Position numbers and translations under genes: made by a program
Shown here: piece by piece, positions 12,716-59,338 of the stretch
Layout of the letters: every line of letters starts with the position of its first letter
Position numbering within the stretch: position 1 is the first letter of the stretch
Source: Fragilariopsis cylindrus CCMP1102
Lineage: Eukaryota; Bacillariophyta; Bacillariophyceae; Bacillariales; Bacillariaceae
Length of the DNA: 64,000 nucleotides
NCBI GenBank assembly: GCA_900095095.1
Contig: FMBT01000407.1
Location: 1-64,000, forward strand
Direction: 5' to 3'
The notes under the pieces: model-generated
Databases searched by the model: none
Told to the model about the DNA's origin: nothing
What the model saw: only the letters and a program-made list of their open reading frames with translations

Positions 12716-15700
12716 TTAAAAGTCATCAAAATCCCATCCACCATCCTCCTCGTTCTTGTCAGTAGGATCAATCTTGGTTACTCTATTTCTATCGGCTCCA
12801 TTGGGAGAGCGAGTCAATTGATGTGTGCTATCAGTGTTGCCTATGAAGGATTGGTTTATTGGTTCCCGCGACGATACTGTCTTTCGTCTTGTTTTTTCAA
12901 CTTGTGGCATTATTTGTTTCGAAGACAGGGATTTAATTAATCCGAGTTGCTCGGGCTGGCAACTAGAAGTACTAGAAGGTTTCGAATGATTGAGTAACAA
13001 AGTCCTTCCTTCTTCGATAAGTCTTTTACGGTTCCCAGGTTCATTACTTTTGGTGCTACGCAGCTTATTCAAAGCTGCTTGACCTCTCTTTCGCAACTCC
13101 TCTCTATCAATCAAAGATTTTTCAGCAATATTCCTCCCTGAAACAGTCCCAGTTGCAGACGTCAAACATTTTGACAACGGCACAATCGCTGCACGTGGAG
13201 GAGGAGGCGGTGGTCGCCGTCGTTTTTGGACGCTTCGCTTTTGGTGGTCCAAGGAAATCGAGTCGACCTTAACGATGCTATTTTCTTGATTAGCATGATC
13301 TTTTGTAGACACACGAGAAATATTTTCTGCAAGTTTCTGTTCCTTCTTCTGGCGTATTATTTTGTGAGCCACTGGTTGGATAGTCTTTATCTGTTTCTGT
13401 GAATCGGCTTTCGTCTCGGCAATGTAGTCCGAAGCATCAGAGGGTTTGTTTCCAACTTGAAGTCGATTTGCAATATTGTGAAGGATCGTGGAACGATGCG
13501 ATGGATCCTCAAGAATACGAGATAATTCTGTGAGACTCTTTTGAAGCAATCGTATGGAATCTTCCTCGACGTATTTTCTGTTAGTCGGTTTTAAAAAAAA
13601 GAAGGGGTTGTTGATACCAGAATCCGTCGTATGTAATGCAGCCCATCCTAGTGCGTCAGTGTAACCGGCATTCCCAGTCATTATAACTGCTCGTCTAGCC
13701 TCGTTGTCGCCGAAACCTATCTCGGTAAGTTTTTTTACTAGATTTGAATCAGGTAAAAGAAATGTGTTCATTGTTTCAAAACTTTCTTCACCGTCGACGC
13801 TAGTAGCTTGATCAAGTGCAATTTTCTGTAATTCATCAACGCAATTTCCCCCCGTAAAAGCACTTGGTATTTGTAGGATTAAAGCACAACCTGAAATTAA
13901 ATTATCTCGAAAGTCTGCCTTATCACGCAAATCGACAAAACTTTTGGGAGTTTTCGAGTCATGAATGCACCAATACATTGTAAAACGGCTCAATGCATTC
14001 ATTAAAGAATCATTCACCAGTCCATGGCTAGTTTGACTGGCCAACTCTGTAAATAGAGACTGTATTACTGCATTATATTCATGAAGTACATGATTATATA
14101 GTCGAGCGATGGGGCGAGAAAGTAGATGTTCTTTTTTTCCAGGAGGCAAACAGTCGATAACATTATTGAATCTGCTGGTTATACGGTCAAGATTCGAAGA
14201 AACTCGAAGGATAGTGTTGAAGGCTTCAGAGTTTTTCAAAAGTTTTGTCTTGAAACGGCATAAAACAGTTTGGCAAAGCTCTTTCTTTGTCATTTGGTCT
14301 AGATAATTTTCGGTCGAAACTACTTCAGCAATAGCACCGAGTATGACACTATCCATAGTTAAATTGGTGTACGATCCAAACTCTCGGTCATATATGAGAG
14401 TCCTGGCAATCGAAGCTGCAGCGCCATGCAATCCGATTTGTAAAGCATAATGAATGACCCTACATTTGACTGCCAATGCCGACGTCTTGCTTTCGAGTCC
14501 TAGAATTGTGGCTAGATGGAAAACCCCCCCTCCAGGTAAATCTGGCAACTCCTTGTTTTGATTTTCATCTAGTATCACACCAGTAGGAGATTCTGCTTGA
14601 CGGAGCAAGTTGTTTGCATCTCGAGCATAAGCACTATCCATCCATCGCGAACAGCCACATCCGATACATTCTGGAACTTTTTGCAAGACTTTCTCAATTG
14701 CATCTAATGCATGCATTTCCTTGAAGTCTAATGGTTTGAGAGGAGTCCCTAGTTTTCCATCGAAAAGGACATTTGAGACGAAACGAGAGGCATCGAGATA
14801 ACGGCGATTAGATTGAAATATAGACTCGAGTGAAGAGTCTAAAAGCGGTATGAGGATCTGTTGACATTTTATGGCGTCGGAGATTCTACTGTTGTCATCC
14901 CTTTCTGAAAACATAGCTTCATCAACGTATTCAAGAACTGAATCCTGTATTTTTTGTTTGTCCCCTACAGTACTATCAGATCCAAGATACGACGCAACTA
15001 TTTCAAAGTAGCCCTTTTGTAGTAATGCTGGAATAACATGTTTGCATACAACTGTAGAAATATCCAAGGAGCTTCCGAAGCACACTTCATTCAAGCTTCG
15101 TATGTCGCAAAGTAGATCATGGAATAACGCCACTTCGTTCCGAGTACTTGTAATAACGGTAACAGTGGCGAAGAATGATTTGCATATTTCAAGCACATCA
15201 CAGTATACTTTTTCAAATTCGTGGTCTGTCTTGTATCTTTTAATTTGGCGCTTGTTAAAAAAAGCAAAGGGTTGTTTACATCCAGGCCATCCTGACAATA
15301 TATCCATACCGACCAAATCTTGGTAAAACGCTTGGATTTTCAATTCGTACTCCAACTCTGATGAGATGAGTCGAGCGGGTAGTGTCTCGTACAACCTCCA
15401 AATAGATCCAATCAGTTCTTTTGTATCGTCAAAAGAAAGAACAGCAGTATCCAAATTCTTTGAAACTTCCTTTGTAACAGTCATCACAAGTTCAATCAGA
15501 CTTTCTTTCTGCTTTACGAGACGATCCCTCATATGCATAGACGCCTTGCTATTTTCTGCTATGACTATTGCAGATGCCAAGACTCGTTTCGCTCCGATAG
15601 TTTCCAAGTCCCTGTATCTTATTGCTTCTTTGAGACAAAATGCGACCAAAGCTTCGTCCAAATTATCATTTGAACTTGATATGTACATTTCCGTCACTAG

Positions 15701-18700
15701 TGGCTGGACAAACTCTCGGAATTGGTAGAGAATGTCAGAACTATGCGATCCACGACCTAGAATTAAGTCAAGTAGTTCCACTAAGTTAGTGCCCAATAGG
15801 TCATCAGTATTGATACTATCACCATCAATTGAAACTACTTGGTCCAATAGCATCCTCCGCAAAGATAACCCAGTTCGCCAAGTCTTATGCAATTCTTGGA
15901 CATAAGGATCAGCTATCATAAGACTGCTTTCATCTAGGTAAGGAGAAGAGCACTTTAGACCAAATACACATAAATTGATTACATCGTCAGCATTACCAAC
16001 GAAAGTCTGCGCTCGTTTTGCTCTCTTCACAAACCAACTGGCGACCAATGCTTCGGATATCGCCTCGTCATCGAACCTGTCGTACAAGACTTTATTGTAT
16101 TCAAGGACAATCATTTCATCAGAAGTACCAAAAACAGTCGATATTCTCATCGTTTCTGATATATATTGAGGCATATGAGACCAAGGTAACTTCGAAATGC
16201 ACTGACTTGAGTGCAGGAAAAAATCTGAAAAATTCCCTTGGTCGACTACTGGAAATAAGTGACAGTACAAAGTGGAAGTCAATGGCAAAGGTAGTGCAGC
16301 CAAAATGGACAACAAATTTCTGTGAACTTCGAAACGATGTCGAAACAATACGATAGTGAGAGCTCCAACATCGCCTCGTTCTGCTAATTGTAGCGACAAA
16401 CTAAGTAAATCAAGTTCCTTGAACTCGTTCATGAATTTTTTCAAAGATGGCTCAGACTTGAATCTTTTTGAGAGAAGTTCGTATGTTCCTAACCTGACAA
16501 AATAGCTCCTTATTTTCTGTATTTTTTCGTCTTCTCCTCTCAAGAAAACACGAAGAGCCAATTGAAGTACAGAGCGTAGTTTTTCGAGCGTCAATCCATT
16601 GTCACTTATGTCGGACTCGTATATAGCTAGCGCCTCTCGAATAATATATGGCTCGTCGTTAATAGCCTTCAAACTATCAACATCTCGCTCAATCTCCCAC
16701 ATATTTTTATAACAATTTTTTATAACAGCAGCGAGCGCATTTTGTTCGTATTCTGAAAGTTTTTTAGCCGACTGTATGGCCTCTCTATGCTTCGACTCTC
16801 GTGCCAATGTCTCTACAATTGCCATTGGTTGCAATTTTTTCAGTACGAAGAACTTTAAAAAATACGCACTTGTTTGTGCTATCGATGCCGGTCCCCGAAT
16901 CTGCCAGGAAACAAAGGATAGGCTGTTATCTTCTAGATTCGATATTGCAGCCCCGGATGCTGGAAATGACACATGTATCACGGAGGTTTTCAGTGGTCCC
17001 TCTTTGAGTGTTTGTTGTGTGTTAGTTATATCATCGTCTTCCAGAAAATTAAATGTTGCAATCACAAGTTTTCTGGAATGGTTCAGAATAAAGACAATGG
17101 GAGGCAAAAATTCAACTCCACCCACACCAATGCGTCCAAGCCAGTGAAAATTACCAACAGTTGGTCTTATCATAGGATGTTTCTGTAAAGCAGTTGCAAC
17201 TTCATTTCGAAGTACCACACTTTTCACGAGATGAAACGGCAGTTGAGTTTTATTTTGCTCACTCTCAGTGTCACGATATTGCCCATACTCGTGGTGTGTC
17301 ATATTTTGAGCGGCTACTCGAGCCAGTACAGAACAATCGAAAATCTGTACACCTCCGTTAAAATCTAATACCGATAGAAAAGGTCCCGAATGATTTGATT
17401 TAGATCCGTCACAACCAGAAAATTGCATGGACACAATTGGAGCCGTTGTTGTTAATGTTGTAACAGGGGTTTGATTTTGTGAGCTTTCTTCTTCGTCTCT
17501 TTTCGACACAGTAACATCCCTCAATTCAACCTGTCGCGGGGTCCTCCATCTGCTCATTATTCCTGACGTTGCAAAAATACTAACGGGAGAGCCAGTATTC
17601 GTCCAAATAGCTTCGAGTAAACAAGAGTGCAATTGAAAGTCAGTAGAACCTTTTGGATTTGTCGGTGTCGTTGATTCTTCGGGCGAAAAGATTGTAGATA
17701 TTGCCCAAAACGTAATTGTATCACCGAATCCACCTTCAACAGAAAGTCCAGATGCACATAACAGAAACTCCGCCGGTGGACCATGAGGGTATTCGTGATT
17801 ATTCCAGATTGATTCACTGTTGACATCAGTACGAAAAACTTCCAAGGTTTGGACATCAAGGTGGTAATCTAATGTCGTCAATGCTACAGTATTTAAGGGA
17901 GAGGCGATATTTTCGCCAGTGGTATAATGATATGGTTGTGGATGCCGGCCACGTTTGCTTTTAGCATGCGCTGAATTTTTTTTGTGTTGTCGATAATTAT
18001 TTGGTACAAGTATGGGGCCTTTCCACAGTTCTGTCGGCAACGGTACGAGTTCGATATATCCTCCCAATCGAGAGATAACTAGTGTAACAACTATGGACTC
18101 ATCTTCTTCCGTTACTTGTTTGGTCGGTGCTTCAACATGAAGTGCCACGCAATCGCTTATCTTTAGCAAAGGTGATCCCGGTTGTTCTTGATCGTCATGA
18201 AACAAGTCCTTAGCATCACTCGTCATACTTTCCAAGACGGGTCCCGAAGGTCCCAACCACCAAATAGCATCCCAACCCTCTCCTGCCGCGTCGTCGCAAC
18301 AAAAGTTGTCATTGTTGCTTGACATCGACATCCTTCTTCGGTAAAACACAGTAATTCCGTCTAAAAATCCCCACGAAACAGCAATACAGTTCTGTGAAAG
18401 GACGGTTCCCCGAACTGAAGGAAGGTCAAATTGCTGAGTGCGTTCGGCATATTCTAACAGTTCGTCACGATCTGAAGTATAAAATATTTGCGAAGAGGAA
18501 CTACGTTTCCCACTTGCAGAGCGTGTAGCGCTTATGGGAGTGTGACTCCCACCTAATTCGGCAATTTCTCCTAATCCTACGGCAATGAACATGTCGGATG
18601 ATTTGGATTCGGTACGAGGTTTAGTGTATTGCGATTGTTGTTGGGTCAGCTGTCTACTTCTCGGTCCGCACCGAAACGAATTAGGGTTTTCTCGTCGCAT

Positions 18701-19255
18701 TCTCGTCGACGTCAAATGAGATCTTGCCACATTGTACACTTCGAGCGGAATACAGGAGGTATCCAAAGAGTTGATTGTTCCACATAGAATTCCATCGTCT
18801 TCGTCGTTCGTAGTATTTCGATACGTCAACCGACTGTCGTCGTCGTCCTCGTCATCATCATTGCCGCTGTCATTAGTACTCATTTTAGTAGTATCGTGAT
18901 CCACTTCTGCTTCATCTCTACTACCAAATAAAAAAGTAAAGAATCCTCTTCGCGGTTTCTTCTTTGATTGAGTATCGCAATTTTCTTGTTGATTTTGGAA
19001 GGAAGAGGCTGCACTAGCCGCTTGCAACAACGTATCTCGTTGTCTTTTTTCTTCTAAAAGTTTTGCATTCGGATAGAGGTCTGCATAAGTATGGAAAATT
19101 TCTTCTAGCTCGGCACGAACTGCATTGTCCAATATGCTTGTTTTCTTGGCTAGTGCCTTGTTTTTGTCACTGGCTGCTGTTGTCGACGGCTGGACCTTGA
19201 CTTTTAATGGGTGACATCCATTTTTTTGGACGAGAGCGTAATGTTGTTGTGCCAT
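12716..19255 (-). CDS. NBAS/Sec39-like ER tethering protein (2179 aa)
   Basis: Intronless frame from ATG at 19255. The N-terminal 800 or so residues look like a beta-propeller-type region (SWGFLDGITVFYRR; repeated short beta segments). From about residue 815 an alpha-solenoid follows (VETLARESKHREAIQSAKKL, RLGTYELLSKRF, LSLQLAERGDVGALTIVLFRHR, LLSILAALPLPL) that resembles the Sec39 domain of NBAS and plant MIP2, including the order ATYE, then the lost-cargo helix pairs, then a conserved PW. NBAS acts with RINT1/Tip20 and ZW10/Dsl1 in the NRZ/Dsl1 complex, which tethers COPI vesicles at the ER. Length is near plant MIP2 and human NBAS. Two additions are unusual: a UBA-like helix bundle near residues 1842-1885 (EIGFGDNEARRAV...) and an acidic terminal GGWDFDDF. 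A polyproline run lies near residue 2020. Upstream a 38-residue acidic/Asp patch follows the N-terminal helix. The family call rests on pattern similarity over a divergent solenoid. Confidence 0.65.
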   Translation of the reverse strand: MAQQHYALVQKNGCHPLKVKVQPSTTAASDKNKALAKKTSILDNAVRAELEEIFHTYADLYPNAKLLEEKRQRDTLLQAASAASSFQNQQENCDTQSKKKPRRGFFTFLFGSRDEAEVDHDTTKMSTNDSGNDDDEDDDDSRLTYRNTTNDEDDGILCGTINSLDTSCIPLEVYNVARSHLTSTRMRRENPNSFRCGPRSRQLTQQQSQYTKPRTESKSSDMFIAVGLGEIAELGGSHTPISATRSASGKRSSSSQIFYTSDRDELLEYAERTQQFDLPSVRGTVLSQNCIAVSWGFLDGITVFYRRRMSMSSNNDNFCCDDAAGEGWDAIWWLGPSGPVLESMTSDAKDLFHDDQEQPGSPLLKISDCVALHVEAPTKQVTEEDESIVVTLVISRLGGYIELVPLPTELWKGPILVPNNYRQHKKNSAHAKSKRGRHPQPYHYTTGENIASPLNTVALTTLDYHLDVQTLEVFRTDVNSESIWNNHEYPHGPPAEFLLCASGLSVEGGFGDTITFWAISTIFSPEESTTPTNPKGSTDFQLHSCLLEAIWTNTGSPVSIFATSGIMSRWRTPRQVELRDVTVSKRDEEESSQNQTPVTTLTTTAPIVSMQFSGCDGSKSNHSGPFLSVLDFNGGVQIFDCSVLARVAAQNMTHHEYGQYRDTESEQNKTQLPFHLVKSVVLRNEVATALQKHPMIRPTVGNFHWLGRIGVGGVEFLPPIVFILNHSRKLVIATFNFLEDDDITNTQQTLKEGPLKTSVIHVSFPASGAAISNLEDNSLSFVSWQIRGPASIAQTSAYFLKFFVLKKLQPMAIVETLARESKHREAIQSAKKLSEYEQNALAAVIKNCYKNMWEIERDVDSLKAINDEPYIIREALAIYESDISDNGLTLEKLRSVLQLALRVFLRGEDEKIQKIRSYFVRLGTYELLSKRFKSEPSLKKFMNEFKELDLLSLSLQLAERGDVGALTIVLFRHRFEVHRNLLSILAALPLPLTSTLYCHLFPVVDQGNFSDFFLHSSQCISKLPWSHMPQYISETMRISTVFGTSDEMIVLEYNKVLYDRFDDEAISEALVASWFVKRAKRAQTFVGNADDVINLCVFGLKCSSPYLDESSLMIADPYVQELHKTWRTGLSLRRMLLDQVVSIDGDSINTDDLLGTNLVELLDLILGRGSHSSDILYQFREFVQPLVTEMYISSSNDNLDEALVAFCLKEAIRYRDLETIGAKRVLASAIVIAENSKASMHMRDRLVKQKESLIELVMTVTKEVSKNLDTAVLSFDDTKELIGSIWRLYETLPARLISSELEYELKIQAFYQDLVGMDILSGWPGCKQPFAFFNKRQIKRYKTDHEFEKVYCDVLEICKSFFATVTVITSTRNEVALFHDLLCDIRSLNEVCFGSSLDISTVVCKHVIPALLQKGYFEIVASYLGSDSTVGDKQKIQDSVLEYVDEAMFSERDDNSRISDAIKCQQILIPLLDSSLESIFQSNRRYLDASRFVSNVLFDGKLGTPLKPLDFKEMHALDAIEKVLQKVPECIGCGCSRWMDSAYARDANNLLRQAESPTGVILDENQNKELPDLPGGGVFHLATILGLESKTSALAVKCRVIHYALQIGLHGAAASIARTLIYDREFGSYTNLTMDSVILGAIAEVVSTENYLDQMTKKELCQTVLCRFKTKLLKNSEAFNTILRVSSNLDRITSRFNNVIDCLPPGKKEHLLSRPIARLYNHVLHEYNAVIQSLFTELASQTSHGLVNDSLMNALSRFTMYWCIHDSKTPKSFVDLRDKADFRDNLISGCALILQIPSAFTGGNCVDELQKIALDQATSVDGEESFETMNTFLLPDSNLVKKLTEIGFGDNEARRAVIMTGNAGYTDALGWAALHTTDSGINNPFFFLKPTNRKYVEEDSIRLLQKSLTELSRILEDPSHRSTILHNIANRLQVGNKPSDASDYIAETKADSQKQIKTIQPVAHKIIRQKKEQKLAENISRVSTKDHANQENSIVKVDSISLDHQKRSVQKRRRPPPPPPRAAIVPLSKCLTSATGTVSGRNIAEKSLIDREELRKRGQAALNKLRSTKSNEPGNRKRLIEEGRTLLLNHSKPSSTSSCQPEQLGLIKSLSSKQIMPQVEKTRRKTVSSREPINQSFIGNTDSTHQLTRSPNGADRNRVTKIDPTDKNEEDGGWDFDDF

Positions 19256-43399: not shown

Positions 43400-46300
43400 C
43401 TATTTGTATTGAGCTGACTTCTTTATCCATTGTGCACCTTTACTTGCTACTGATTCCATTTCGTCGTTCGTCATTGAAGATAATGTTCCTCCATCTTTAT
43501 GGAACCAGTAGATTCCAACAGGTCGATGGCCAAAATAGTTCATGGAATGCCAATGACGCATTTCAAGGAGCTTACCCACAACAGAGTGATCAGTAATTGA
43601 AAGATGATTCATCAGACTTTTCCCTAGATCCGTGATGGCTTGTACGGTGATGATATCGTTAAATTCAGGCCAAACAATAGACACGCCGTCAACAGTTCTT
43701 GTAATATAAGCAGAACCAGTTCCACCACCAGTAAACTGGTGACTTGTATTTCTGATGTTAGCATTATTGTGAAACTTAGGACGGGCATCAATTCGTTTCC
43801 ACACAAGCTTGCCATCCTTATCAACTTCGCCAGTCTTTTCAATGGTTGATCCCGTTAGTGGATTCGAATTGCATCCAATCTTCCCTTTCTTCTTTCGATC
43901 AATGGCGTATTGGCAACCGTACATCACTTCCGTGTGAATTTTGTTCCACTCTTCACTATTGAATTTGTGATTATCATCATCATTTCTCAAGGCCATAAAT
44001 AAAGCAATAAGCAACGGAATATGAGAGTTAATACAAAATTTAGAAACACCATTCCATTGTACTACCTTTGGATGGCATGTATCTGGATAATGCATTAATC
44101 CGTGACGAATTGCTGATAAAAGATACTTGAGAGCACGACTCGTTGTGTCTTTTGTTACGAACGAATGTCCAAGGAAAGCGTTTTTTACGTTGCTTATTTT
44201 CCGAAGGACCACAAGCAACTCGGTTGTTTGTTTGGGTGTGAGTTGCCTGTAGCCCGTCTCCAACCGTTGTGTGGGTGTCTTTTCAATTAGGCTGATCTCG
44301 TACGATTTTTTCTATACCAAAAAGGTAGGAGATTCAACAAATAAAAGTTAGATTATAACAGAAATATAAGGATAAACATTGACAACTAACACAAATAGAA
44401 TTAACACGTACCGATTCTTTCAACTTTTGCGCCATATAGTCAATCATTTTCTGTTCTTCTGCTCTCTTCTTGTATCTTATTCCACAAGCTAAAACATTGA
44501 AACAACGACCGTTTGTTGTGGTGATGTCATCGGATGATCGTTTCTTGTTGTTGCTGTTGAACGTTACTGCGTTGCTGAAGGACGATGCACGTTGTTGTGG
44601 TGGATACGATGGTGGATGAAATGAAGTCTTTGACGACAAAGAAGACATTTCATTATTACCGGAAGGTAAGGTCAAAACGGTCTTGTAGATATCATTTTCT
44701 TTGTCATTGTTGTCGTTATCAATGCCTAACGTAGTAGTAGCTGTAGTAGTAGCTGTAGTAGTAGTAGTATCGATAGGAGGTTCCAATTCTTGTTGTTGTT
44801 GCTTGGTTGATGTGTTACCATGATGCGGTTCACCACGATCGCATAAATGATTCGGCAGTGTCGGTCCATGTGTACTGCATAAGCCAGCCTTTTTTGCAAT
44901 TTTATCGCATCCAAAGTGGTGAGAAGAAAGAGACTTGATATTCCTGTGTGTGTTGTCGACAGTAGATTTAAATTGTTTGACTAATTTTCGACTAGCAGCA
45001 GAACGTTCCGTAGATTCCATAAGTACTTTCCATGATTCATTGATCATTTTGGCATCAATAAGACTGTCTTGCTGTGATTGTGGCGTCATGCTGCTGTTGT
45101 TGTTGTGTTCCTCGGCCGTTGTCGTAAATTGTTTGACTAATTTTCGACTAGCAGCAGAACGTTCCGTAGATTCCATAAGTATTGTATCTTGGGAGGGAGG
45201 AGTTGTTGTCAATAGGGTAACCTCTCTCAGAGCCTTTTTGGTCTTTGTGAGTACTTTTATTTCATCAATTTCTACCCACCAATGAACACCACTGCCACCA
45301 ACAACGGATGTATCCTTAGTTAAGAATCTACCATTTTGTTGTTGCACCTGACGAACAACCTCTCTTGCGACAACTGTCTTTTCCTCCGTATCACGAGCAA
45401 GATTGTAATCTTCCTTCCTGAGACGAACCCATTCACGGAAGACTTTATTACCAGGATGAGAATTACTTCCCTTACCTATTCCACTAAGTACGTCTTGAGG
45501 AGTAATTCCACCACCTCGTCCACTAAGTACATCTTGAGGAGTTGTCGTCGATGACGGTGGGTGTTGTTGCTGTTGTTGTGATTGTGGCGTCATCGGTTGT
45601 GGCGGTGATGGATCATGATTCTTATTGTTATTATTATTATTATTCGATTTTGTTGTTACGGTGGCCGGTGCACCTTCTCGTAATGCCTGTCTATTTTTTT
45701 CTAATACCGTTTGTATACCGATTCCACGTCCCGATAAGACATCATGATAGTGTGGAGTTGCAATCCCACCAGTACTACCGAAAGTAGGAGGAGAAGATGA
45801 TGAGGATGAAGAAGCGCCATCAAAAGTTGTACCTGCTGATGGTGCTGATGGTGTACTCGTACCGCCACTACCAAAAGTAGGACCCGTAGACGACGACGAT
45901 GATGGGGGTGTACTCGTACCACCACTACCATCATTAATGTCGCCACCAGAATAAGCGTCAGGTTCCGGTGTTAATCGATTTAAATCCGCAGTCCGTTTTC
46001 TGAAGACTTGGTTTCCAAGACAACTACCTACGAATTTTTTCGAGATACGCATGGGATCACAATTTAATAATTTACTGAGGTAAGTTCGTAATGTGGTACC
46101 ATTTGTTAATGGTAACAAACCTGCTTCAAATTCTTGTATTACACGATTCGCATAGGCTTCTTCTTCGGGTGTCCAATTACCACGTCGTAATTGTTGCACT
46201 TTTTTTTGTTTATTATTATTAGAAGAATTGCCACCACCATTATTATTATTATTTCCATTAATAGGTTGTTGCTGTTGATTCTGTTGCTGGTGTTGCTTAC

Positions 46301-46583
46301 GTTGTTGTTGTTGCTGTTGAACTGACCGTGCTTGTGCTTGTGGATGTTGTTGGGCCTCATAATCATGAAGTACCACTGCGACTGTTGATGCTGCTGATGT
46401 TGTTGTCGTCGTAGCCTTCCTCTTCTTCACTAGATTGTAATTATTATTCGATTTTGTTGTTACGGTGGCCGGTGCACCTTCTCGTAATTCCTGTCTATTT
46501 TTTTCTATACGATTCGACGTCCCGATATTAATGCTTTCTGCTATTAATTCCTCGGCCGTTGTCGTGGGCGATGACGTTGACAT
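43400..46583 (-). CDS. DVLSGRG/DUF6824-like protein with long low-complexity linkers
   Basis: Exon 1 runs from ATG at 46583 to about 44412 (TCG|GTACGT). Exon 2 continues in phase from about 44278 to 43400, giving about 1016 residues. Near residue 145 there is a WTPEEEAYANRVIQEFEAG... segment ending RISKKFVGSCLGNQVFRKR, a helical domain seen in diatom proteins without known function. A DUF6824-type domain lies near residues 355-480 (DVLSGIGKGSNSHPGNKVFREWV, VVRQVQQQNGRFL, HWWVEIDEIKVLTKTKKALRE). These regions are separated by Gln/Asn/Thr/Ser runs. Internal duplications are visible: EKNRQxLREGAPATVTTKSN occurs twice and ESTERSAASRKLVKQF twice. The C-terminal 290 residues are well ordered (GHRPVGIYWFHKDGG) but not recognised. 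The exon 2 acceptor sits after a poor pyrimidine tract, so the exact junction is uncertain. The role is possibly DNA- or chromatin-linked (inference only). Confidence 0.7.
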
Positions 46584-49565: not shown

Positions 49566-51641
49566 CTACCGATCCCAAAAAAGTTCGTTTGCATCTAAAT
49601 CACGTAGGCTATTTATTTTTTTCATGTAAATTTTGCTGGCTCTATCGTAGTTATAAGTAGCTTGACGACTTGGAGGCAAGAGGTCCACCCCAACCTCGTC
49701 AAACCCTCGTTCGATGAACCATTCCATCGTTTGTGTGCTCAAAACAAATAGATTAGAAGCTCCCTCTACGACACATACTCGCTCAAGATATCCCAGCATT
49801 GCGTCACCTCTTCCTTTCGCACGATAGATAGGGTTAACGACAAGACAACCAATTTCGGCATAACCATTTTCAAACATCTTTAGTTGACCACTGGCTATGA
49901 GCAGACCATCACGAGTATATACATGATACTGATCAATATCTCTCTCTAGCTCTGCCTTGGTCCGCCCTACTAATATCCCCTCTTCCACGAGGGGAGTGAC
50001 GACTTTGTAAATAGCTGAGGCATCACCCACTGTGGCACGTTGAATACCATCATATAAGTCACCAGATATCATTGTTCCAGAGCCATCCCTCGTGTATAGT
50101 TCCTGCAAGAGACCACCATCATTGGGCGATATCAAATGAACACGCTTGACTCCTGCTTCGAGTGCATTCATACCCCATCCCATTTTGGTCAAGAAAAGTC
50201 GCTCGGCTCCATGGTCAAAGGGGCAATCGTCGAAGTAAACAAATCCTTTTGTTTCCATTCGTACACCATTTAATTCCAATAGTTTGCGCCCCTCGTTGAC
50301 ACGTAGATGCGGGATACTGCTTCTGCGAATCTTGTGGCGAAGCGCCGCATCCCTCCCAAGAAAGTATATAACCTTGCTAGCACCTAACTCACCTGCAGCG
50401 TACGAAGCCAGGTATTCCGAATTGACATTGAAAACTTCTCCGGTAGGACTGAAACCTAACGAGGTCAGGAGAACAATATCGCGATTCTGATGAACCTGGT
50501 GGATCTTTTTTGTTTCCATTCGCCGAACGAAGCCACTGTACTCGTAATCAACTCCGTCTAAGACGCCGAAGGGTTGAGCTGAATAAAAGTTTCCCGAAAC
50601 TACATTTCCCTCACCAACATCGACCTCATCGGTTCCATTACTACTGCTCCTACTAGTTCCCCACGACGACCCTCCTTTGAGAGCACGTGCGAGTTGACGC
50701 TCCACTTCAAATCGAACGTATCCCGCTTCTTCTTTAACGACTCTCAGCGATTCTTTGTCTGTTACCACCATACCCATGTGCTCACTTCTAAGTTGACTAT
50801 CTTCTTTGCATCTTTTATCGATCTGGTATCGACATCCCGCAACAATGACTATCTTCATCCCCAATAGCCATGATAGAGAAATATCATCCATTAGATCTCG
50901 AAAGCCCTTCGGATTCTCATCCATCAAGTCTCCAGGAATGTGAAATACTGCCAATGTATTGCGATGGGATGCTATGTAGTTTGCTGATCCACGGAACATT
51001 TCAATAAAATTTCGGTTACTAAATGGGCTGTTGAGGTCATTGGCAAGGAAGCCCTTCTTTTCGAGTTCATTCTCCATTTCTTGTTGACGTCGTTTGTCTG
51101 TCCGCTCGTATATGTCAACCATTTCTGGGTCGAGGCCTAAGACACTTCCAACCGTTTCTCGAGCACTAACATCAGCGGGAGGGGTAATACTTGATGCTTT
51201 GGCACTGCTATTGTTCCTGCTTTTATTTTTATTTTTGCGTTCATAGCTACTATTGCATGCATGATCAACTTCTTCATTATGTTCAGCCTTGAGGTTGGAA
51301 CTCAAATTCCTGATGCCACTTATTGGGTTTTTTCTGTCACGATAAATGCGGTTGAAATTCGTTGTACCTTCAATCTGAAAAGCAGTTGCTGACAATCGAA
51401 GTTGGTTACCTGATTTTTGTTTGTGAAATTGTCGACTTGATTTATGAAACGATGACGATTGTATTGTTGCTGCTGATAGGCGAGATTTATAACGACTTTT
51501 TATAATATTACCGCCGTTTACCCTACCACACCATCCAGAAACAAATAATGTATATTCACGACATACGCAAGAGGAGAACGTTACGATCAACGTCATTACC
51601 GCTATTCTAGTCGTTAATGTTGTTCTTTCCATCCGAAACAT
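49566..51641 (-). CDS. N-acetylglutamate synthase (amino-acid N-acetyltransferase), organelle-targeted
   Basis: Intronless frame of 691 residues from ATG at 51641. It makes N-acetylglutamate from acetyl-CoA and glutamate, the first step of arginine synthesis. Residues 1-40 form a hydrophobic leader (VMTLIVTFSSCVCREYTLFV), followed by a Ser/Arg/Lys-rich stretch, which suits import into plastid or mitochondrion. The kinase-like half (about 215-480) starts FRGSANYIASHRNTLAVFHIPGDLM and contains LLGMKIVIVAGCRYQID and ALGASKVIYFLG motifs. The GNAT half (about 540-680) shows IYKVVTPLVEEGILVGRT, LLIASGQLKMFENGYAEIGCLVVNPIYRAKGRGDAML (with the acetyl-CoA loop YRAKGRGD) and WFIERGFDEV. This is the bacterial ArgA-like two-domain type, as in plants. 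The 200-residue N-terminal extension before the kinase half is longer than in bacteria. Confidence 0.88.
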   Translation of the reverse strand: MFRMERTTLTTRIAVMTLIVTFSSCVCREYTLFVSGWCGRVNGGNIIKSRYKSRLSAATIQSSSFHKSSRQFHKQKSGNQLRLSATAFQIEGTTNFNRIYRDRKNPISGIRNLSSNLKAEHNEEVDHACNSSYERKNKNKSRNNSSAKASSITPPADVSARETVGSVLGLDPEMVDIYERTDKRRQQEMENELEKKGFLANDLNSPFSNRNFIEMFRGSANYIASHRNTLAVFHIPGDLMDENPKGFRDLMDDISLSWLLGMKIVIVAGCRYQIDKRCKEDSQLRSEHMGMVVTDKESLRVVKEEAGYVRFEVERQLARALKGGSSWGTSRSSSNGTDEVDVGEGNVVSGNFYSAQPFGVLDGVDYEYSGFVRRMETKKIHQVHQNRDIVLLTSLGFSPTGEVFNVNSEYLASYAAGELGASKVIYFLGRDAALRHKIRRSSIPHLRVNEGRKLLELNGVRMETKGFVYFDDCPFDHGAERLFLTKMGWGMNALEAGVKRVHLISPNDGGLLQELYTRDGSGTMISGDLYDGIQRATVGDASAIYKVVTPLVEEGILVGRTKAELERDIDQYHVYTRDGLLIASGQLKMFENGYAEIGCLVVNPIYRAKGRGDAMLGYLERVCVVEGASNLFVLSTQTMEWFIERGFDEVGVDLLPPSRQATYNYDRASKIYMKKINSLRDLDANELFWDR

Positions 51642-54878: not shown

Positions 54879-57800
54879 TTATCTCGACTCGGTGCTGATG
54901 ATCCACTTGTTTAAATCCAATAGCTCTACCCAAGGAATATTGCTGTGCCCTACACGCGTGTACCAATCTGCGAAATCGTCGAAACTAATCGTGTCGCGAA
55001 TACCACGACTACCCTTCATAGCTTTTTGAGCAGCCCATTGACATCCCATGTCGACAGCTCGTGATATAGTGCTGATCGAGTTGTCGCATTTTTCACCACT
55101 CATTGACGTCATAACGTCGTCAACAAAGTCAGAATCTAACGAACTAGACGAGGTAATCTTTACCAAAACCAAAAGAAACGAGCGTAGATATCGAGTTACG
55201 TCTGAGCTTAACAGAAATCCCCCTTTGTCTCTGTCCAGTATCTCAAATGCATACTCCAGTTTGTCACTTTTCTTGCCCTGACAAAGGAGAGTGAAACCGC
55301 AAGCGATGTCAAAGGCATTGGCTTTCCCGGTTCCATCATAGTCAAACGCCATGAATATATCGTTCAACAAATTAGATAAAGTTCGTTGTGTATCCACGCT
55401 CATATTTCTACTTACGATGACTGTACGCATAGCCGAATCGAAGCCCTCCTTGGTAACATAATGGGAGTTACGAGAATTAGATTTACCATCCCGATATGCT
55501 TTAGCTAGAATTTCTTTCGAAGCCTTTTCACCATCTATCTTAGGAAGACCACTTTCACACAACACATGACGTAGGTGACATAGGCGCTTCTGGCTCACTG
55601 AGAAACAATAACCGTCCTGGCTGTCGTCTGTTACTATATGAAACTTCAAAGGGTTAGAGTTTCGTGGAGGACTTTTAGCTTTGGGTGACGGCTTCGGCGA
55701 GTACGGAAATGATCTTACAAGCTTAGAGAGAACAGCATCTTCCTTATCTTGAGACGGCTGTTGCATCAAGAGCAAGTCCATTTCATCCATCATATCCATC
55801 GGCATGATAGCGTGTGCATCATCGTCATCAAAGAACGATGCATCGACTTCCGCATCGGGAGGTGCTGGTGGACAGCCCGGATCAGATATCTCTAGTCCAA
55901 GGGTATCACCAGGTGAGTTCGGCGGAATTTTTTCTTCCAAAGAATCTAAGTTTTCGACAAGTACCCATTTTGTCAAATCGAGTAGTTCCAACCATGGCGC
56001 TGTCTCATAACCCCCTTCGTTGTACCATTGACCGAATTCATCAAAGTCCACGCGTTCCTTCTTCCGCTTCCGCCATTGGTATCTCATAACATCATCTGTG
56101 ACCATATTGGCTGTATCCGCAATGTACCGATTGACTGCGTCATCCGATAAATCCCAGCTTTGCCGACAGCATGAAAATGTAACAATCAAAAATGATCGAA
56201 GGAACAGAAAAAGTTCTTCCCCATCCAATGAATTTGGCTTTGATAGGGCTTTCTTTCCTTTCTTTTTTCCTTTTTGACGCCGATCGAACAAGCTGAAAGC
56301 GAAAGATAATTTCGTCGATTTTTTTCCTCCACATAGCAAGGTCAAACCACCCATCAATTCGTTCAAGGAAACTTGATCAATCTGAACCAGATCATAGCTC
56401 CGAAAAAAGTTAGCAAGGACGTCCCGAGTATCAGATAATGATTTTGAAAGACCACTAGAACTTCGTTTTTTACTAGCTTTTACTTTGTTTTGAATAGTCT
56501 CGTGCATGTATTCCACAAAAGTTAACTTGTCGAGCAGCATAGATTTTGACATTGCCGCACTTTTTAGGTGTTTCTTTGGCATGTTCAATCCTGGTCGTTT
56601 CAATGCGACACTGTACAAAGTCGACCATACCTCCTCCGGAGAGAAAGGCAGCAATCCTAATTGATCAACAACCCCTCGAACGTAAGTCGCATCTTCCTTC
56701 AGAACAACTAGAGAGCACTGATTCGCTAGAGGGAATGTGAACAACACCTGAACCGATGGAGGGGGACGGGAATGGCCAAATGGTGTAAGGAGGGGACCAC
56801 TTGAACTGTGAACATGCCTTGTAACGTTGTGTGAATGCCGATATTGATTAGTAGAAAGATGAGAATGGCTGGGACGAGGTGAAATGAATCCTGGGGATGC
56901 AGTCTTCGGCCGTCCAGGAAATATTGGAAGTGCGTCATGTGTCGGCGTAGATGACTTCGGATTCATTTCGTCTCCGATTACTAAGGAGAGAAGCTTCTTC
57001 AAATCAAGAAGTTCGAGCCATGGTGCGGTATTGAAACCTCCGTTAGAATACCAAGAAGCAAATGACTCGAATGTGTGTCTTGCTTGGCTATCATCATCTT
57101 CTGGTAGACCCACATCTTTGAGGTAATGTCCTAACGTCCATCTCGCTCCGTTTTCAACGGCGGCGTACATCAACTTACGCGTGGCTGCGTTCAACTTAGG
57201 CTTCATTATACCATCCGATGATGAGGTCAAGAACGATATCCCGGCCAACATAGTTAAGTATGATCTTAAGAAGCGAACGAGTTGGTTGCTCGTCAATCCC
57301 ATCCCTATTTGTTTCTCGAGCATTTCGAATCCAGTTGCCAGCTTAGAGCTTTTGTTCCCGGCACACAGAAAACAGAATCCAACAGCAAGCTCATAAGTAA
57401 ACGCCTCTCGGGATTCAAGAGGTGGAATGCCCGAGTTGAAACAACCGAAAAAGTCTACAAAGCAGGAAGAAAATATATCCCCATCGATCTTCGAAAGTCT
57501 TCGAGTTGAACCAGACCCCAAAAGTTGGTGTAGGCAAGTGTGGAAACGCTCGATCGAGATAACTTTTTTCACATCCCCTTCGTGGTCACGATCCTTTGAC
57601 GCTTGTAGTAGGATTGTAGTTATTTCGTGGCTCGATCGATTGATTAGACCCGTTCTTTCTACTAAACTACGGAAGGTTTTGAGATTTTCTTCTGTTATGG
57701 TTATACAAAACGTGCTATCACCTTCTTCATCCTCAGGTAAAGATCCAGAAAAGTCAAAAGAAAGAACAGTCCTACTTGCTTTGTTGCTCACGTAGTGTGG

Positions 57801-59338
57801 AGTTTGGCAAGAAATCTGTGTTAGTGGGTTTGCGATCGACGTGACATCTTCAATTTTCTTTTTCGGCTCAGAATGATCCTGTGACTTTTCATTCCTTTCC
57901 AATAAATCCAGCGATCCTCCTTGGATAGACGACTTCTGTTTGGTAGGAAGTGAACTATTGTTGATTTCCTCGGACTCGAGTTTTGGTTGAGAAAGTGTAT
58001 GGTGTGTTCCCTGCTTCTGTTTGGTAGGCTGCTGTAACTGGTGGAGCGTTTGTGGTGGACCAGCACTTCTCTCGGTAGATCGCTGGGGTGTCTTCCACCT
58101 TGAAAGGTTCAGTAGATCCAGCCAAGGAGCTATTCTAGCCCCCTCTGCTTTTCGCCAACTCTGGAAGATGCCGAAGGTGACGACTACCGGTATATTATCG
58201 CTGATGTTGCTGCTCTTATCAATATTCCCTAACTTCTTTTGAGTGTACTTGATAAGACGGTCCGTTGCGTATATTGCTATTTCCTCAAATTCTTTGCGCA
58301 CCGATGATATTTCTAAGTCACCATCCTCTTTGAGAGTTGCGATTATCGAATTGTCAAAAGACACGGTGGGTGCCTTAAGTGACGGTACGGAGCCTGTGCC
58401 ATTTAAAATACCATGAATATCCGGAACAATATTCTTCTTCCAATCGGTTTCAGGAGTATTAGGCTTCCTCCGTTTGGCTTCTGGTTGCTCTCCGTTCGGC
58501 TTATTCCCATATCGATTTGCACCTCCGCGTTCTTATGAATACATGACGATATAGCAACAATGACTGCCCGGAAGAGTGAAAGTGCCCCGTCACGTGTGAG
58601 ACTCTTTTCTTCGTCTTTTTCTTCATCCTCCCCATTAGTTTCCGTTTCATCCATATCAGAAGTCCATTCACCTCTCCTTTGGTCACCAAGAACGTCAAAG
58701 ATTTGTTTGATTTTCGAATTTAAGTCCATATCTGAAAATACCATTACACCGGCTCTAATTTCTCGTGGAGACGATCCTGAATGTTTCATTTTTTCCAGAA
58801 AAGATTGTAACATAGTATTATCACATTGCCGAGCAGCGTCGTATATAAGTTCATCCAAGGATCGGTTGCAATTACTGTTATCGTTGCTGCTTTCTTTTTT
58901 GGAGGAGGCAACAATCCCAGGACAAGTCTTCGTTCCTTCGTCCTCCGAGGTAGAAACAGTTCGAAGAGGAGGTTCACCAGGTGAATCATTTACGTCACCA
59001 TTGTCCTTCTCGTCTATTGCGGTAATGCCATTCATCATTGATAGGGTGTCACTACTACTACTGCTACTTATATCACCATCTTTCAGAACGGGCAGTGACG
59101 CCATATTCTTATCCTCCTCTCGCTGCTGCATTTCATACAGTTTTTTGGTCAAGGCTTCACTTGCTTCCAGAACACGCTTGACGTCATCTTGAGTGATCGA
59201 CAAGGTTATCGAAGGAACGGGGTTCTCATTACTTGTAGTATTAACAATAGCAGTAGAACATGCACTCTTTGTGGTGTTGGTGTGTGGAACCGATTCTTCC
59301 TTGTTCATCGGAGAAGAAGACGCAACAACAGTAGCCAT
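54879..59338 (-). CDS. Large EF-hand-like protein built of four repeated units
   Basis: Begins at ATG 59338 (MATVVASSS); the frame is open to 58403 and continues in another frame from about 58510 to the stop at 54879, about 1460 residues in all. The two frames can be joined by a GTGCAA...GGAGGAAG intron of about 58 bases near 58440-58500 (phase 0). Four units of about 250 residues can be seen. Each has a long helix, an EF-like pair and a closing signature: WRKAEGARIAPWLDLLNL, WYSNGGFNTAPWLELLDL, WYNEGGYETAPWLELLDL, WYTRVGHSNIPWVELLDL. Units 2-4 also carry FTLLCxGKKSxKLxxAFxxLDR. Unit 4 has a canonical calcium loop (DYDGTGKANAFD); unit 3 (DRRQKGKKKGK) and unit 2 have lost it. Linkers are Ser/Pro/Gln-rich. 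Calcium sensing or scaffolding is inferred from the EF-hand; no catalytic domain is seen. Confidence 0.65.

Follow-up and report, generated by a model that had tools for sequence, protein, structure and literature searches.

A gene on the minus strand of the diatom Fragilariopsis cylindrus CCMP1102 raises the question of what kind of protein would close four successive units with nearly the same signature, i.e., APW(L/V)ELLDL or a close variant. It lies within the stretch of 64,000 nucleotides analysed here, hereafter the window (contig FMBT01000407.1, positions 1 to 64,000), where the initial annotation saw a possible undescribed repeat family of EF-like units. This observation is real and stands in part, with corrections on the frame, the first unit, the conservation and the calcium loops. 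As far as the searches go, the gene encodes a real tandem of a known kind of domain, undescribed as such, where units 2 to 4 result from duplication and unit 4 is an EF-hand domain resembling dystrobrevin in its second and third EF hands (EF2 and EF3). We grant about an even chance to a reading of the protein as a soluble scaffold whose tandem EF-hand domains are of the dystrobrevin type and for the most part independent of calcium, with no ZZ or WW domain. Whether the likeness to dystrobrevin seen in the sequences results from descent or from a general EF-hand resemblance is the main uncertainty.

The gene and its two copies

The interval first delimited does span a single gene, from its stop to an ATG, but in the window this copy is split between two frames, each with its own open stretch. 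The genome contains another contig, C321, that is 99.97% identical to the window across 6181 bases; the differences are a substitution at 58254 and an extra base on C321 in a run of C at 58505. Because the window frame is broken at the latter position and intact on C321, where 1486 codons follow one another in one frame, the protein of 1486 residues (P0002) was read from C321. A single-base difference in a run of C is a frequent kind of assembly error, and the window copy corresponds either to such an error or to a frame-broken (second) allele. The ATG at 59338 is an assumption, since the frame remains open above it for a total of 1537 codons; from this start, the protein begins with MATVV and its C-terminus comes directly after unit 4. 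In line with a diatom origin, the genome contains 27 matches above the cut-off for the silicon transporter family.

Homology of the tandem units

The unit limits, set in this analysis, are listed in Table 1. Units 2, 3, and 4 align mutually along most of their length and are clearly homologous, with pairwise BLAST bit scores of 83 (units 2 and 4), 76 (units 3 and 4), and 53 (units 2 and 3). In a multiple alignment, their identity is 25-28% and 36 columns are invariant, two blocks being among the places where these columns cluster; three sequences are few for such a count. The proposed length of about 250 residues applies to these three units but not to unit 1, which as delimited has 381 residues and matches convincingly in its last 77 residues or so only (22.9 bits with the profile of units 2 to 4). 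While the whole of unit 1 scores 26.2 bits with this profile, against 7.1 for the best of 2000 shuffles, removing its last 40 residues leaves 2.5 bits, a value reached by 29 of 2000 shuffles, and the weak remainder aligns at the expected place.

That each of the four units closes with the motif, as first noticed, was borne out (P0002 residues 404, 772, 1114, and 1468): the pattern W-x(8-12)-PW[LV][ED]LL[DN]L occurs four times in the protein and never in 20000 shuffles of it. In the genome of 67.9 Mb, the DNA pattern for the motif core gave eight matches, i.e., the four sites on each of the two near-identical contigs, and its reversed control gave none. Protein searches of the genome return best candidates only; with this scope, i.e., among the matches listed, and with the pattern search, no paralogue was found elsewhere in the genome. 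In the linkers and the insert of unit 1, 60-74% of the residues are P, S, T, Q, N, E, D, K, or G, compared with 50-61% for the units, and the polar linkers are probably disordered. Across the protein, the mean hydropathy of 19-residue windows never exceeds 1.45, so that no membrane span is expected.

Resemblance to the dystrobrevin EF-hand region

The EF-like nature proposed for the units is sustained by unit 4, which taken alone reaches the Pfam cut-offs of both EF-hand_6 (29.8, cut-off 25) and EF-hand_7 (30, cut-off 30), with EF-hand_1 under its cut-off (20.6, cut-off 25.4); the scores of the whole protein for Pfam EF-hand families stay under the cut-offs. Two of units 2 to 4 match EF-hand_6 and EF-hand_7 at E<=10, scores being given for unit 4 only. 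When unit 4 was searched against solved structures (PDB), dystrobrevin came first (E 8.3e-8) along 78 residues corresponding to EF2 and EF3; it was again first with the whole protein (E 7.2e-7), ahead of calaxin, calsenilin, calcineurin B, and others. As such, the statement that no described family exhibits this layout needs to be divided: the domain of unit 4 is similar to known ones, in sequence to the dystrobrevin EF-hand region and in predicted fold to those of dystrobrevin and dystrophin as well as to NCS1p, while nothing with four such EF-hand domains in this layout was found in the searches performed here.

The reverse search of the genome is, among these sequence comparisons, what we would regard as the most telling test. 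Queried with the dystrobrevin EF region, the 67.9 Mb genome returned unit 4 on both contigs (E 1.8e-7), the sole place at E<=10 among the matches listed. Queried with NCS-1, it returned 27 matches among those listed (best E 6e-4), and the present gene is not one of them. At face value, the likeness to dystrobrevin is therefore not general to the EF-hand genes of this genome.

It is possible, though we lean against it, that the units are instead NCS- or calaxin-like four-EF-hand calcium sensors of the recoverin fold, multiplied and degenerated, in which case their likeness to dystrobrevin would be that of EF2 and EF3 in general. Several results point this way or otherwise weigh against a dystrobrevin-type domain, namely (i) the match of unit 4 to dystrobrevin is limited to EF2 and EF3, with calaxin next, and calaxin comes first, non-significantly, for unit 3, (ii) units 2 and 3 taken singly do not retrieve dystrobrevin in the solved-structure search, (iii) a profile search of the kind suggested by the initial annotation, built from units 2 to 4, places dystrobrevin alpha (3.2e-6) and KChIP4 (3.4e-6) level, each over about 140 positions, (iv) a hidden Markov model (HMM) of dystrophin plus dystrobrevin recognises unit 4 and not units 1 to 3, unit 3 scoring 8.1 bits with an NCS HMM against 4.7 bits with this one, both weak, (v) a dystrophin query matches nothing in the genome, (vi) EF-hand_2 and EF-hand_3 of Pfam, which we take to be the EF-hand region of dystrobrevin and dystrophin, are not listed for units 2 to 4 at E<=10, and (vii) the predicted model of unit 4, structure prediction having also been suggested at the outset, superposes on dystrophin and dystrobrevin over about 195 residues but tied with NCS1p, the model of unit 2 being uninformative. 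PF09069 and PF09068 matched nothing in the genome, but no control genome passed the cut-off either, so that little is shown thereby. Against a sensor of the NCS kind, unit 4 scores 31.3 bits with the HMM of dystrophin plus dystrobrevin and 10.5 bits with the NCS HMM, the reverse search with dystrobrevin reaches only the present gene among the matches listed where that with NCS-1 misses it, and the protein starts with MATVV rather than with the MG of NCS-1 and has no strict canonical loop. Units 2 and 3 are assigned to the dystrobrevin type because they are homologous to unit 4.

Conserved blocks, closing motif and calcium loops

In the closing stretch of units 2 to 4, 13 of 32 gap-free columns are invariant, compared with 23 of the 191 columns preceding it, EF2/EF3 block included. 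Nonetheless, the motif is not alone in being conserved, the EF2/EF3 stretch around GFTLLCxGKKSxKLxxAF having the same rate (9 of 22 columns); since this block is equally conserved, it does not follow from conservation that the motif is a functional surface. The dystrophin EF region closes with F-L-D-W ... V-W-L-P-V-L-H-R (as verified in PDB 1eg3), and the motif aligns with this terminal stretch, VWLPxLHR facing PW[LV]ELL, hence the suggestion of a structural reading in which it would be the last helix of the domain. Alone, the last 45 columns obtain a marginal score, reached by 7 of 200 shuffles, and likewise by 7 of 200 with NCS; once they are removed, the score to dystrophin plus dystrobrevin hardly drops (37.3). 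A position at the domain end fits a structural closing helix and a partner-binding surface equally well.

As for the calcium loops, they are mostly degenerate and best kept in unit 4, as was first described, but even there none is strictly canonical: no 12-mer among the 1486 residues fits the strict EF-loop pattern used here. In a relaxed test on six positions per 12-mer, the third loop of unit 4, DRDKGGFLLSSD, is the only 12-mer of the protein with all six. The second, DYDGTGKANAFD, has four, a score that is not rare as it is equalled by ten other 12-mers and exceeded by one linker 12-mer with five. Both loops end with Asp, and Asp rather than Glu at position 12 favours weaker binding of calcium, or binding of magnesium.

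These results bear on the proposal of a calcium-switched receptor, where the closing motif would be the functional partner-binding surface and unit 4 the calcium input. This we consider unlikely, even if the closing stretch ranks with the best-conserved parts of the units, persists in a unit 1 that is otherwise hard to recognise, and coexists with the best loop in unit 4, considering that the EF2/EF3 block is conserved to the same extent and the motif thus not singled out, that its aligned position in dystrophin, where the EF region ends, would require no more than a structural role, and that the loops of unit 4, ending in Asp, fit no strict pattern. It is highly improbable that the gene is decaying, with a frame-broken allele in the window and functionless degenerating leftovers as units 1 to 3, for if the frame break, the degenerate loops, and the barely recognisable unit 1 speak in favour of it, the C321 copy is open throughout, the break amounts to one base in a run of C, and the invariant columns persist in units 2 to 4 despite their low identity, few as three sequences are.

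A putative scaffold of EF-hand domains

A soluble scaffold of dystrobrevin-type domains could be organised as follows. Three clear EF-hand domains and a worn one would stand in tandem, separated by polar linkers, each being a four-EF-hand-like helical module of the type of the dystrobrevin and dystrophin EF region that would have arisen by internal duplication. Calcium binding would have been lost in units 1 to 3, whereas the one or two loops kept in unit 4 may still accommodate calcium or magnesium, through which the last module could be tuned. The W..PWLELLDL stretch at the close would serve as the final helix that packs each module shut, and it possibly contributes to a docking face. The modules may bind partners or one another, much as dystrophin and dystrobrevin pair through their EF hands. 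The location would be cytoplasmic, no ZZ, WW, or membrane parts being detected; at E<=10, Pfam lists no ZZ domain, WW domain, or spectrin repeat for P0002, and eight ZZ matches above the cut-off are listed elsewhere in the genome (C324, C91, C760, C451, C265, C253, C525, and C120). A bolder version, which we hold to be rather doubtful, is that the dystrobrevin-type module exists in this diatom as a covalent tandem whose neighbours pair with one another as dystrophin does with dystrobrevin, i.e., a ZZ-free scaffold older than animals and shut by the W..PWLELLDL helix.

Table 1. Features of the repeat gene in the window (positions of the 64,000-nucleotide stretch; residues refer to P0002)
Feature	Position	Strand	Remark
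Whole gene	54879..59338	-	Assumed ATG to stop; 1486 codons on C321, window copy one base short
Length difference in C run	58505..58505	.	C321 has one more C; frame of the window copy broken here
Unit 1 (residues 40-420)	58080..59221	-	Strongly diverged, long polar insert; good match to the unit profile confined to about 77 C-terminal residues
Closing motif of unit 1, APWLDLLNL	58104..58130	-	
Unit 2 (residues 540-788)	56976..57722	-	Full-length homology with unit 4; without well-formed calcium loop
Closing motif of unit 2, APWLELLDL	57000..57026	-	
Unit 3 (residues 871-1130)	55950..56729	-	Homology with units 2 and 4; third EF hand carries a lysine-rich insert
Closing motif of unit 3, APWLELLDL	55974..56000	-	
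Unit 4 (residues 1239-1484)	54888..55625	-	Best-preserved EF-hand domain; the one matching dystrobrevin
Second EF loop of unit 4, DYDGTGKANAFD	55308..55343	-	Four of six relaxed positions, partly canonical; Asp at position 12
EF2/EF3 conserved block of unit 4, GFTLLCQGKKSDKLEYAF	55245..55298	-	Part most like dystrobrevin
Third EF loop of unit 4, DRDKGGFLLSSD	55200..55235	-	All six relaxed positions present; position 12 is Asp
Closing motif of unit 4, IPWVELLDL	54912..54938	-	

Other frames of the window

Three further frames of the minus strand were recorded in the window, namely (i) a frame of 691 residues at 49566-51641 that combines amino acid kinase and GNAT acetyltransferase domains, presumably the layout of an N-acetylglutamate synthase, (ii) a frame of 749 residues at 44334-46583 with DUF6824 (76.8 bits), and (iii) an open frame of 2179 residues at 12716-19255.

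Relatives and significance

Profile and single-protein searches of viral contigs, prokaryote genomes, and phages, i.e., collections not meant for diatoms, gave no confirmed relative. The DNA pattern of the closing motif was absent from the viral contigs and present in two bacterial stretches of a collection of genome contigs. In the open-licence literature, no published account of such a diatom protein was found. Dystrophin and alpha-dystrobrevin are described as pairing via their EF-hand regions (PMC12750041) and the EF hands of dystrophin as serving to bind partners beside the WW domain (PMC10789850). According to a third source, dystrophin and dystroglycan are absent from unicellular organisms, a statement that does not address the dystrobrevin EF region alone (PMC10293626); in the light of this stated absence, a relative of the module in a diatom is of interest. 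If the dystrobrevin-type assignment is true, the gene would offer a test of the origin of the core module of a muscle-disease complex, and a ZZ-free tandem version in which the role of the EF-hand region alone could be addressed. If the likeness is merely that of EF hands in general, this would be a repeat protein of modest interest.

Comparison with known systems

Compared with the EF-hand region of dystrobrevin and dystrophin (PDB 8yt8, 9c3c, and 1eg3), the diatom units are alike in (i) their length, about 210-250 residues, (ii) their EF2/EF3 block, closest to that of dystrobrevin, LCGGKIMDKLRYIF, and (iii) a domain end alignable with that of dystrophin as F..W ... W[LV].[LV]L, marginal when taken alone. 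The EF hands of dystrophin itself are not known to bind calcium. In contrast to both proteins, the diatom protein has no ZZ, WW, or spectrin repeats listed by Pfam, possesses three to four copies in tandem, and leaves EF-hand_2 and EF-hand_3 of Pfam unmatched. Its chain stops right after unit 4, whereas proteins of the dystrophin family continue towards a C-terminal coiled coil that binds syntrophin and the partner. With NCS proteins, calaxin, and KChIP, the units have in common a predicted four-EF-hand helical fold, the EF2/EF3 block, and a fold score where NCS1p ties with dystrophin, but the MG start for myristoylation (MATVV here, at the assumed ATG) and strict canonical loop of the NCS family are lacking, and the genome search with NCS-1 misses the diatom gene among the matches listed. 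Calcineurin B resembles unit 4 in EF2 and EF3 sequence over about 68 residues (E about 1e-4), a weaker match than that of dystrobrevin over 78 residues (E 8e-8).
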